64,000 bases of DNA. Source: Streptomyces fungicidicus. GTDB lineage: Bacteria; Actinomycetota; Actinomycetes; Streptomycetales; Streptomycetaceae. The stretch is from NCBI RefSeq assembly GCF_003665435.1, contig NZ_CP023407.1, forward strand, positions 1,736,001 through 1,800,000, written 5' to 3'. Below are positions 22,633 to 25,409 of the stretch, in pieces (position 1 is the first letter of the stretch; each line of letters starts with the position of its first letter). A model generated the notes under the pieces. The model worked only from the letters and a program-made list of their open reading frames with translations, was not told where the DNA came from and made no database searches. A program made the translations under genes and the position numbers.

Positions 22633-22854
22633 TCAGGCCGAAGGGGCCTTTTTGCCCCGTGTCGCCCCGCCACGCCCTCGGAGCGTGACGCCCGACTCGC
22701 TGAGCATGCGGTGAACGAAGCCATACGAGCGGCCGGTCTCCTCGGCCAGCGCCCGGATGCTCGCACCGGCGTCGTACTTCTTCTTCAGGTCTGCCGCGAG
22801 CTTGTCGCGCGCGGCGCCGGTCACCCGGCTGCCCTTCTTCAGAGTCTCGGCCAC
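22633..22854 (-). CDS. gbn: Gbn-like small nucleoid-associated DNA-binding protein
   Basis: A 73-residue basic protein: a Lys-rich N-terminus (ETLKKGSRVTGAARDKLAADLKKKY), a helix-turn-helix DAGASIRALAEETGRSYGFVHRML, and an Arg/Gly tail GVTLRGRGGATRGKK. It matches, from memory, S. coelicolor SCO1839 (Gbn), a nucleoid-associated protein reported to bind GATC sites and affect development. GTG at 22854 has AGGAGG 5 bases upstream. An in-frame ATG at 22893 also has a good site (GGAGGGG) and would add 13 residues. GATC sites lie upstream, including four within 56 bases at 23124-23179. Confidence 0.82.
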   Translation of the reverse strand: MAETLKKGSRVTGAARDKLAADLKKKYDAGASIRALAEETGRSYGFVHRMLSESGVTLRGRGGATRGKKAPSA

Positions 22855-22977
22855 CCGTGCCTCCTCATGGGAAGTGCGCTCTGGTCTCCTCATGATCACC
22901 CCTCCCGGCCCTCATGGCCACCCATTCGGCAAGGTCGATGAGACAAGGTTGTGACGACGGGAGCGCGTCCCCACATA

Positions 22978-23197: not shown

Positions 23198-24796
23198 TCA
23201 GGCGAGGGCGACCAGGTCCGCGTAGTCGGCGCCCCACAGGTCCTCGACGCCGTCCGGCAGCAGGATGATCCGCTCCGGCTGGAGCGCCTCGACGGCGCCC
23301 TCGTCGTGCGTGACGAGGACCACCGCGCCCTTGTACGTGCGCAGCGCGCCGAGGATCTCCTCGCGGCTGGCCGGGTCGAGGTTGTTGGTGGGCTCGTCGA
23401 GCAGCAGCACGTTCGCGGAGGAGACCACCAGGGTCGCCAGCGCGAGACGGGTCTTCTCACCGCCGGACAGGACACCGGCCGGCTTGTCGACGTCGTCGCC
23501 GGAGAACAGGAACGAGCCGAGCACCTTGCGGACCTCGACGAGGTCCAGGTCGGGCGCGGCGGAGCGCATGTTCTCCAGGACCGAGCGCTCGGGGTCGAGG
23601 GTCTCGTGCTCCTGCGCGTAGTAGCCGAGCTTGAGGCCGTGGCCGGGGACGACGGCGCCGGTGTCCGGCTGTTCGACGCCGCCCAGGAGCCGCAGCAGGG
23701 TCGTCTTGCCGGCGCCGTTGAGGCCGAGGATGACCACCCGGGAGCCCTTGTCGATGGCCAGGTCGACGTCGGTGAAGATCTCCAGGGAGCCGTACGACTT
23801 CGACAGGCCCTCGGCCATCAGCGGGGTCTTGCCGCAGGGCGAGGGCTCGGGGAAGCGCAGCTTGGCGACCTTGTCGGACTGGCGGACGTCCTCGAGGCCG
23901 GACAGCAGCTTCTCCGCGCGGCGGGCCATGTTCTGCGCGGCGACCGTCTTGGTGGCCTTGGCGCGCATCTTGTCGGCCTGGGCGTTGAGCGCGGCCGCCT
24001 TCTTCTCGGCGTTCTGCCGTTCGCGCCGGCGGCGCTTCTCGTCGGCCTCGCGCTGCTGCTGGTAGAGCTTCCAGCCCATGTTGTAGACGTCGATCTGGGC
24101 GCGGTTGGCGTCCAGGTAGAACACCTTGTTGACGACCGTCTCGACCAGGTCGACGTCGTGGGAGATCACGATGAAGCCGCCGCGGTAGGTCTTGAGGTAG
24201 TCGCGCAGCCAGACGATCGAGTCGGCGTCGAGGTGGTTGGTCGGCTCGTCGAGGAGCAGGGTGTCCGCGTCGGAGAACAGGATCCGCGCCAGCTCGACGC
24301 GGCGGCGCTGACCGCCGGAGAGGGTGTGCAGGGGCTGGCCGAGCACCCGGTCGGGCAGGTTCAGCGCGGCGGCGATGGTGGCGGCCTCGGCCTCGGCGGC
24401 GTATCCGCCCTTGGTGAGGAACTCCGTCTCCTGGCGCTCGTACTGCTTGAGGGCCTTCTCGCGGGTGGCGCCCTGTCCGTTGGCGATGCGCTGCTCGTTG
24501 TCGCGCATCTTGCGGATCAGCACGTCGAGGCCGCGCGCGGAGAGGATGCGGTCGCGGGCGAGCACGTCGAGGTCGCCGGTGCGGGGGTCCTGGGGCAGAT
24601 AGCCGACCTCGCCGGAGCGGGTGACGGTGCCGCCGGCGGGGATGCCCTGGCCGGCGAGGACCTTGGTGAGGGTGGTCTTGCCCGCGCCGTTGCGGCCGAC
24701 CAGGCCGATGCGGTCGCCCTTGGCGACGCGGAAGGTGGCGCTTTCGATGAGGACGCGGGCACCGGCGCGCAGCTCGATGCCGGAGGCGGAGATCAC
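23198..24796 (-). CDS. ABC-F family ATPase (ribosome-associated, Rv1473-like)
   Basis: A 532-residue protein with two ABC domains and no membrane segment. Walker A motifs are GRNGAGKTT (34-42) and GLNGAGKTT (about 352-360), and signatures LSGGQRRR (about 158) and LSGGEKTR (about 444) are both intact. A basic interdomain linker (about 235-300; QQQREADEKRRRRERQNAEKK) matches the arm that enters the ribosomal E site. It strongly resembles, from memory, Mycobacterium tuberculosis Rv1473, an ABC-F linked to macrolide tolerance. GTG at 24796 has GGAG 9 bases upstream. Its leader contains a 7-codon ORF, suggesting regulation by ribosome stalling. A housekeeping translation-factor role is the alternative. 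Confidence 0.9.
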   Translation of the reverse strand: MISASGIELRAGARVLIESATFRVAKGDRIGLVGRNGAGKTTLTKVLAGQGIPAGGTVTRSGEVGYLPQDPRTGDLDVLARDRILSARGLDVLIRKMRDNEQRIANGQGATREKALKQYERQETEFLTKGGYAAEAEAATIAAALNLPDRVLGQPLHTLSGGQRRRVELARILFSDADTLLLDEPTNHLDADSIVWLRDYLKTYRGGFIVISHDVDLVETVVNKVFYLDANRAQIDVYNMGWKLYQQQREADEKRRRRERQNAEKKAAALNAQADKMRAKATKTVAAQNMARRAEKLLSGLEDVRQSDKVAKLRFPEPSPCGKTPLMAEGLSKSYGSLEIFTDVDLAIDKGSRVVILGLNGAGKTTLLRLLGGVEQPDTGAVVPGHGLKLGYYAQEHETLDPERSVLENMRSAAPDLDLVEVRKVLGSFLFSGDDVDKPAGVLSGGEKTRLALATLVVSSANVLLLDEPTNNLDPASREEILGALRTYKGAVVLVTHDEGAVEALQPERIILLPDGVEDLWGADYADLVALA

Positions 24797-24853
24797 GGAC
24801 AGACTCCAGGGCAGGTGTGGGTGGCGGTGGGCGGCTGAGGACGTTCCCGCCGT

Positions 24854-24877
24854 CTAATGCGCGAGGAGAATGGCCAT
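24854..24877 (-). CDS. Candidate leaderless regulatory uORF (MAILLAH)
   Basis: A short ORF ATG-GCC-ATT-CTC-CTC-GCG-CAT-TAG encodes seven residues, 57 bases upstream of the ABC-F start on the same strand. The -10 hexamer TAGAAT (24885-24890) ends 7 bases before its ATG, so the transcript should begin at this ATG and the peptide would be the first thing translated. An 8-bp stem (24867-24874 with 24882-24889) overlaps it, mostly upstream of the predicted start of transcription. Antibiotic-stalled leader peptides are known upstream of several ABC-F genes; this one is my inference. Confidence 0.5.
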   Translation of the reverse strand: MAILLAH

Positions 24878-24884
24878 GCGAGCC

Positions 24885-24914
24885 ATTCTAACGGGGCGGT
24901 GCAAGCGCTTTTTT
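24885..24914 (-). promoter_or_regulatory. Promoter of the ABC-F leader transcript
   Basis: TAGAAT at 24890-24885 reads as a -10 element. A run of six A residues (24914-24909 on the minus strand) lies where the -35 region would be, in otherwise GC-rich DNA. A-rich tracts near the -35 are a feature of WhiB7-type promoters, but no match to a defined motif can be claimed. Confidence 0.45.
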
Positions 24915-24995
24915 CTGCGTGCGGGTCCCCCGGCCGTCCTCGGCGGCCGGTGCCAAAATGGGCTACATCCGGACATACGGCTGAGGAGTGATCGC

Positions 24996-25409
24996 ATGGC
25001 GGGTACGGGCGGCGGGCGTCCGAGCGTGGTTCCGACACTGCTGTACAGGGACGCGAAGGCGGCGATCCGGCAGCTCACGGAGGCCTTCGGGTTCACGGAG
25101 CTGTCGGTGTACGAGGGCGAGGACGGCACCGTGATGCACGCCGAGCTGGTGCAGGGAAACGGTGCGGTGATGCTGGGCACGAAGGGCCGCGGAGGGGTCT
25201 TCGACACGGCGATGGAGGGAGCGGGCCCTGCCGGGGTGTACGTCGTCGTGGACGACGCCGACGCACACCACCGGCGCGCGGTGGAGCAGGGCGCGGAGAT
25301 CCTGATGCCCCCGACGGACCAGGACTACGGCTCCCGCGACTACCTGGCCCGCGACCTCGAGGGCAACGTCTGGAGCTTCGGCACCTACGCCCCGGAGACC
25401 GGGGGCTGA
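24996..25409 (+). CDS. VOC-superfamily (glyoxalase/bleomycin-resistance-like) protein
   Basis: A 137-residue protein with the two beta-alpha-beta-beta-beta modules of the vicinal-oxygen-chelate fold: VVPTLLYRDAKAAIRQLTEAFGF in the first and VYVVVDDADAHHRRAVEQGAEIL...GSRDYLARDLEGNVWSFG in the second. Such proteins bind small molecules or metals and include isomerases and drug-binding proteins. Here the metal ligands are not obvious, so a specific function is not assigned. GAGGAG 8 bases before the ATG at 24996 sets the start. It is divergent from the ABC-F gene. Confidence 0.85.
   Translation: MAGTGGGRPSVVPTLLYRDAKAAIRQLTEAFGFTELSVYEGEDGTVMHAELVQGNGAVMLGTKGRGGVFDTAMEGAGPAGVYVVVDDADAHHRRAVEQGAEILMPPTDQDYGSRDYLARDLEGNVWSFGTYAPETGG

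Follow-up and report, generated by a model that had tools for sequence, protein, structure and literature searches.

A seven-codon upstream ORF complementary to the start site of a Streptomyces ABC-F gene, a candidate translation attenuator

In a stretch of 64,000 nucleotides (nt) from Streptomyces fungicidicus (contig NZ_CP023407.1, positions 1,736,001 to 1,800,000), here called the window and numbered from its first base, a gene for an ABC-F protein is preceded by an upstream open reading frame (uORF) of seven codons, and the question is what so short a frame does there. An earlier note on this DNA had proposed that the arrangement fits attenuation by drug-stalled ribosomes at the short ORF. 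Conservation of the ORF and attenuation as its likely role are well supported by the comparisons below, to which we can add that the uORF is itself the predicted anti-Shine-Dalgarno arm; the stalling by drugs stays a proposal. We consider that the leader is probably a translation attenuator, in which the first 13 nt of the conserved uORF are complementary to the Shine-Dalgarno sequence and start of the ABC-F gene, and a drug-stalled ribosome would free that site. The drug induction, the leaderless transcription and the class of drug are what we infer.

The layout described in the earlier note is exact in the sequence. Read directly on the minus strand, the -10 element TAGAAT (24890-24885) is followed by a spacer of 7 bases, GGCTCGC, and then by ATGGCCATTCTCCTCGCGCATTAG (24877-24854), which has the codons ATG GCC ATT CTC CTC GCG CAT for the peptide MAILLAH and the stop TAG at 24856-24854. 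From this stop it is 57 bases to the GTG (24796) of the ABC-F gene, which codes for 532 amino acids (aa) and has its Shine-Dalgarno GGAG at 24807-24804 on the same strand. At least 595 stretches matched, and for comparison near home we took the best 80 of them; by title 78 are Streptomyces, one is Streptantibioticus and one is Kitasatospora, and with the window they make 81 Streptomyces-type loci. All 81 have TANNNT, 6 or 7 bases, ATG and a short ORF that ends before the ABC-F start. The features of the window locus, with P1 and P2 for two predicted stems, are as follows.

24901..24914, minus strand: A-tract (24914-24909) and TTGC (24904-24901) upstream of the -10 element, conserved in Streptomyces-type loci.
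24885..24890, minus strand: -10 element TAGAAT (TANNNT in 81/81 loci, 6 or 7 nt from the ATG).
24854..24877, minus strand: leaderless-looking 7-codon uORF MAILLAH with stop TAG, from sequence reading (TANNNT-N6/7-ATG short ORF in 81/81 loci).
24865..24877, minus strand: 5' arm of P1, made up of the initial 13 nt of the uORF and predicted to be the anti-Shine-Dalgarno, pairing with 24795-24807 in the predicted minimum free energy (MFE) fold.
24820..24854, minus strand: region of the P2 hairpin, which directly follows the stop of the uORF, with exact arms GGCGG 24851-24847 and CCGCC 24834-24830; the MFE fold uses a shifted partner.
24795..24807, minus strand: 3' arm of P1 in the predicted MFE fold, running from the Shine-Dalgarno GGAG (24807-24804) up to and including the GT of the GTG start.
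23198..24796, minus strand: ABC-F ATPase gene, 532 aa, ribosomal-protection-like (NCBIfam NF000355).

The uORF has 7 codons in 75 of the 81 loci, 8 in three, 9 in one and 10 in two, with MAILLAH (33), MAILLVH (11), MAFLLVH (6) and MANLLAD (6) as the commonest peptides, and the most frequent -10 elements are TAGACT (48) and TAGAAT (25). A sequence-only model of promoter plus uORF, built from 40 rows and searched at E ≤0.01, matches 388 of the 392 genomes of the window's genus; of the four misses, two are genomes with a completeness of 78-81%, a third is split into 1140 contigs, and for the fourth, G547, there is no evident reason. Wherever a genome had both places among the matches listed (nine genomes), the model match was directly upstream of the ABC-F gene. 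Conservation of the seven-codon ORF across Streptomyces, which the earlier note had named as a check on its proposal, is thus borne out. When genes were predicted crudely over 464 kb of this genome, 231 had 50 nt or more of upstream sequence, and the window ABC-F is the one gene among them with such a micro-ORF.

For distant actinobacteria we used the upstream DNA of 70 loci, one per genus, chosen from the ABC-F matches listed and with family f4 outside the sample, and scored TANNNT-N6/7-[AG]TG opening an ORF of 2-10 codons that ends before the ABC-F gene. The layout is present in 25 of the 70 genus representatives, compared with a mean of 0.55 and a maximum of 4 in 300 rounds of dinucleotide shuffles, and is far beyond chance. 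Among spacers of 2-15 nt there were 14 loci with 6 and 11 with 7, and 0-4 with any other. All 25 uORFs have 5-7 codons, and their peptides are unrelated (MSAPD, VLRCEP, VRTTS, MMPVAD, MSITD, MSSCT and others). Within a family the peptide is recognisable: in f19 it is MMPVAD in 9 of 11 further loci and MMTVAD in one more, and in f17 the micro-ORF, with M-x-[AT]-P-D-like peptides, is found in 25 of 28 readable loci, where it has 4-7 codons, and in 4 of 7 others. Of further readable loci 4 of 5 in f28 and 4 of 7 in f14 have a micro-ORF. The script did not find the starts at L211, L212, L252 and L253, for the last two of which an earlier script had given short ORFs, and the fragments L218 and L219 were left out.

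Among the Streptomyces-type loci the ATG follows the -10 element at 6 nt in 38 and at 7 nt in 43. The mean distance from -10 to transcription start in S. lividans is 6.3 nt (PMC8079986), and the spacing would thus fit a transcription start at the uORF ATG itself.

It might be asked whether the conserved block is in fact a promoter or operator acting at the DNA level, for a regulator such as WblC/WhiB7, with the ORF incidental. The earlier note had seen signs of a WhiB7-type promoter, and as far as the upstream elements go this stands: the A-tract is kept in 75 of the 81 loci and TTGC, about 4 bases after it, in 76 (both in 71), they are at fixed distances from the -10 element, and a loose pattern of the arrangement has a single exact match in the 7.67-Mb genome, at the window locus. 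A-tract and TTGC resemble the published WblC motif with its -35, GAAAWY-N3-TKGMNN, after which there are 16-19 bp to a -10 of TANNNT. The spacing does not stand, as at the window locus some 8 bases separate TTGCAC from the -10, short of the published spacing by about 9 bp, and this is therefore no standard WblC promoter. Other observations also count against a DNA-level block: the divergent loci, judged by eye, mostly keep start, stop and shortness without A-tract or TTGC, the uORFs of 7-10 codons all keep the frame to a nearby stop, and complementarity to the ribosome-binding site (RBS) peaks at +1 of the uORF. We regard this explanation as very improbable.

A role had also been proposed in the earlier note for an 8-bp inverted repeat, AGAATGGC/GCCATTCT, at the start of the uORF. 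The repeat is present in the window but is kept in only 4 of the 81 loci, and we take it to be incidental for that reason. An Rfam search of window positions 24600-25200 gave zero matches at E ≤1.

The predicted folds of the leaders share one design, in which AUGG..CUCC at the beginning of the uORF pairs with GGAG..CCGU, which comprises the Shine-Dalgarno sequence and first bases of the GTG, and P2 lies inside the stem. At least 4 uORF-RBS pairs are present in the MFE fold of all 81 leaders, and there are 13 in that of the window. The RBS is thus predicted, from sequence statistics and folding models, to be sequestered by an arm of the uORF, and a ribosome translating the uORF would sit over this arm.

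The evidence that carries this comes from an own-versus-swapped test, in which each uORF is paired in turn with its own RBS and with the RBSs of other genera, and the duplex energies are compared. For 24 genera own pairs gave -14.26 kcal/mol and permuted pairs -10.85 (standard deviation 0.57, z about -6, p 1e-4, none of 10,000 permutations being as low). One locus, L119, had been dropped from the 25 uORF loci as a judged chance hit, leaving 24 for the pairing, masking and peptide counts; with L119 restored, z is -5.9 for 25 genera and the permutation result is unchanged. Family means favour the own pair in 11 of 12 families (Wilcoxon p 0.0017), and the reversed uORF with its own RBS gives -10.11. 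The specificity is at the start of the uORF: in a scan with a frame of 18 nt, z reaches -6.1 at +1 and -4.4 at +7 and otherwise stays in the range -2.6 to +1.0, so that the peak covers +1 to +18. Specificity is also present within narrower groups, with z -3.4 (p 0.0016) in a larger f17 sample of 25 loci, two genomes of which were also in the first sample, and z -3.7 for the 26 distinct 5' arms of the Streptomyces-type set. The clearest compensating change is seen between one group, in which AAAUCUCC is opposite GGAGUAUUU, and L073, in which AUUUCUCC is opposite GGAGUAAAU, the arms being AAAU-CUCC with GGAG-U-AUUU and AUUU-CUCC with GGAG-U-AAAU. On refolding, 9.08 uORF-RBS pairs are expected with the own uORF and 5.95 (standard deviation 0.81) with a swapped one. 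Translation attenuation, uORFs of ABC-F genes and leaderless leader peptides were each known already, separately; what is new is the predicted pairing between the uORF and the Shine-Dalgarno sequence and start of the ABC-F gene that it precedes.

There are however observations that weigh against a translation attenuator. Pairing of the uORF with the GC-rich linker has nearly the same energy as pairing with the RBS (-12.95 and -14.09 in 17 leaders), and the case therefore rests on the own-versus-swapped specificity. In 4 of the 24 divergent leaders the MFE fold does not reach 4 uORF-RBS pairs, pairing is weak at the f17 loci L246, L249, L250 and L263 (-7.0 to -8.5), and column-wise covariation is modest, with a best z of 2.5 among 22 unique Streptomyces arm pairs. 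The effect of masking the uORF is uneven. Over the 81 leaders the RBS costs 9.0 kcal/mol to open without a mask and 6.4 with one on nt 1-16, a mean fall of 2.65 as against 0.79 for a linker mask, and 39 of the 81 drop by at least 2. For the window leader, however, the cost goes from 7.8 to only 6.9 with a start mask or 7.5 with a stop mask, a fall of 0.9 at most, and the unpaired probability of its Shine-Dalgarno goes from 0.02 to 0.08-0.09; across the 81 the mean of that probability rises from 0.05 to about 0.2, with a gain above 0.3 in 8. In the 24 divergent leaders the cost goes from 6.7 to 6.3 (start mask, a fall of 0.5) or 5.6 (stop mask), and under the start mask it rises in 8 of them; their mean Shine-Dalgarno unpaired probability goes from 0.29 to about 0.4. 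These static folds, which are a weak test for GC-rich RNA, do not demonstrate a switch in the window leader.

The distribution has also to be set against it, as the layout was not found by our rule in 45 of the 70 genera and no micro-ORF was found in the f4 loci (0/30), so that the ABC-F gene does not need the uORF. Our guess is that f4 is Mycobacteriaceae. Some f4 genomes (L168, L176-L179 and L181) have a TAGACT-like -10 at 8 nt before the ABC-F GTG, and in these the ABC-F gene may itself be leaderless, as an alternative to the uORF layout. As a general account of loci with the uORF missing we do not claim a leaderless ABC-F gene, which our rule found in only 7 of 70 loci. In L116 a GTG ORF of four codons (VGRA), which begins 6 nt downstream of TAAGCT, extends over the start codon of ABC-F and is a possible coupled variant.

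As a translation attenuator the leader would work as follows. The transcript would begin at the uORF ATG. With no ribosome on the micro-ORF, the 5' end would close over the ABC-F RBS by P1, whose arms would be brought near each other by P2, and the protein would be made in small amounts. A ribosome translating the micro-ORF would cover the 5' arm and open P1, and slowing by a drug of the peptidyl-transferase centre would hold P1 open, with the ribosome-protection protein then being made. A ribosome footprint is 28-30 nt, and as the whole ORF is about one footprint or shorter, a ribosome at almost any codon would cover the anti-Shine-Dalgarno arm. The peptide sequence would therefore be dispensable, as is observed across families, in which the peptide appears free to change and shortness and pairing are kept. 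We suggest more tentatively, as a proposal that could well fail, that in many actinobacterial families the first 15-24 nt of the ABC-F transcript are at once a leaderless gene that fits within one ribosome and a lock on the start site, making a peptide-blind sensor of ribosome occupancy that would be opened by any parked ribosome (by phenicols, oxazolidinones or other peptidyl-transferase drugs) and that some families lost or never had.

A micro-ORF of this kind could also be a constitutive start-stop element, which sets basal translation of the ABC-F gene by reinitiation or coupling and senses nothing. The ORFs are indeed very short, their stops are mostly 50-130 nt before the ABC-F gene, and in the Kitasatospora locus L080 the stop is 14 nt before the ABC-F start. 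Coupling would however need shorter distances than these, and in most leaders the ABC-F start has a Shine-Dalgarno of its own (by a simple rule in 79 of the 81 Streptomyces-type and 18 of the 24 divergent leaders), which is itself the paired element, and we think such an element quite unlikely.

The usual mode for antibiotic resistance (ARE) ABC-F genes is transcription attenuation (PMC12421871, PMC10201436), with precedents in lmrC, vmlR, vgaL and probably tiaA/are5sc. Applied to this leader, it would have the uORF control a terminator hairpin at P2, with a stalled ribosome preventing termination. A complementary arm is present after the uORF stop in 75 of the 81 loci (exact and of at least 5 bp, a count without a chance control). 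L088 has a VMLAV micro-ORF and then a terminator-like hairpin with TTTT before the ABC-F start, which suggests transcription attenuation in its lineage. In general, however, TTTT is found in none of the 81 Streptomyces-type linkers and in one of the 24 divergent ones, a criterion that would miss U-poor terminators, and it is uORF and RBS that show the excess of complementarity, a pairing for which termination has no need. For the leader as a whole we judge transcription attenuation to be unlikely.

If it is translation attenuation, our best guess, a weaker one made from homology, is that phenicols and oxazolidinones are the most likely inducers, because mycobacterial OcrA protects against both classes (PMC9159947) and both stall ribosomes after Ala, Ser or Thr, chloramphenicol and linezolid doing so with Ala, and less so Ser or Thr, as the penultimate residue (PMC8987054). 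Position 2 of the Streptomyces-type uORF is Ala in 79 of 81 loci and Thr in the other two, and position 3 of the f17 uORFs, M-x-[AT]-[PS]-x, is Ala or Thr. We nevertheless rejected a sensor specific for the penultimate residue. In the 24 divergent uORFs Ala, Ser and Thr are in weak excess: they make up 32 of the 86 internal residues as against 23.3 (p 0.026) and occur in 20 of the 24 peptides as against 16.1 (p 0.065). The f17 alternation is explained by RNA pairing too, since U in P1 accepts either G or A as first base of the position-3 codon. The last residue before the stop is Asp (8), Ser (6) or Pro (4) among the 24 divergent uORFs and His or Asp in 78 of the 81 Streptomyces-type loci, which may reflect slow termination or be a by-product of the pairing.

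A nutrient attenuator, in which the uORF senses charged tRNA like the leucine, tryptophan and cysteine leader peptides, has in its favour that LeuL, TrpL and IlvL of S. lividans are leaderless (PMC8079986) and that MAILLAH is rich in leucine. Against it, the families have no regulatory codon in common (MRAPD, MMPVAD, VIRTS, MSSCT), and the gene regulated is a ribosome-protection-like ABC-F. We find this highly improbable.

The ABC-F protein scores 391.7 bits with NCBIfam NF000355, for which the curated cut-off is 380, and its best match among solved structures is PoxtA at 272.7 bits, with YbiT near at 265.3, in a comparison with PDB structures. By its sequence it is ribosomal-protection-like and likely an antibiotic-protection gene, and the mycobacterial genes for linezolid protection probably belong to the same group. 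The gene is near-universal in the window's class (189 of 197 genomes). Its downstream neighbour is:

22633..22899, minus strand: HTH_58 gene, 88 aa (PF19575).

HTH_58 is in the same fetched locus as ABC-F in 80/80 of the best related loci and 20/30 f4 loci, and an enoyl-CoA hydratase gene adjoins HTH_58 in 80/80 and 2/30 respectively. A divergent glyoxalase-family gene (PF00903) lies at 24870-25409 on the plus strand; its longest frame is antisense over part of the uORF, and its true start is likely the ATG near 24996 and not that of the longest frame.

If the translation attenuator is real, then an ABC-F gene present in nearly all genomes of its class would have in these leaders a cis-acting drug switch, and leaderless translation, which is common in actinobacteria, would be able to act as an antibiotic sensor. 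Peptide conservation would also be the wrong signal to search for, and shortness with RBS complementarity would find such switches in families with peptides that do not align. In the passages covered by searches of the open full text of PMC we found no paper describing this leader.

With regard to known systems, genes of the ErmC and Cat types have drug-inducible translation attenuators, and the window leader resembles these and CplR in having a short uORF and an RBS that would be sequestered until a ribosome stalls on the uORF. It is unlike all three in that the uORF is itself the predicted anti-Shine-Dalgarno arm, looks leaderless, is about one footprint long and has a peptide that is not conserved across families. 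CplR of Clostridioides is an ABC-F gene under drug-inducible translation attenuation (PMC10201436). Among Streptomyces ABC-F genes tiaA, are5sc and lmrC also have short uORFs and a drug response. The tiaA and are5sc leaders, of 194 and 232 nt, have predicted terminators and the uORFs MVGDDDISG and MLV, each with its own RBS (PMC12421871), whereas the window leader is predicted to be of 81 nt without a U-tract; these two genes are ARE5, another ABC-F subfamily. OcrA (Rv1473), MAB_2736c and PoxtA are likely in the same functional class as the window ABC-F, the first two being compared by description; all three are phenicol-oxazolidinone ABC-F proteins, and the passages drawn on describe OcrA and MAB_2736c without such a leader (PMC9159947, PMC12633451).

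For the leaderless short ORF as a regulatory sensor the nearest likenesses are LeuL, IlvL and TrpL of S. lividans and the polycysteine uORFs of mycobacteria. The polycysteine uORFs are reportedly leaderless and sense amino acids, as do the S. lividans leaders, and in this they are unlike the window uORF as we read it. The S. lividans leader peptides have 12-29 residues (PMC8079986). Finally, the uORF in the whiB7/wblC leader likewise mediates a response to many ribosome drugs in actinobacteria, but there attenuation governs a regulator that acts in trans (PMC13236596, PMC12421871), whereas the window leader is predicted to control a single effector in cis.

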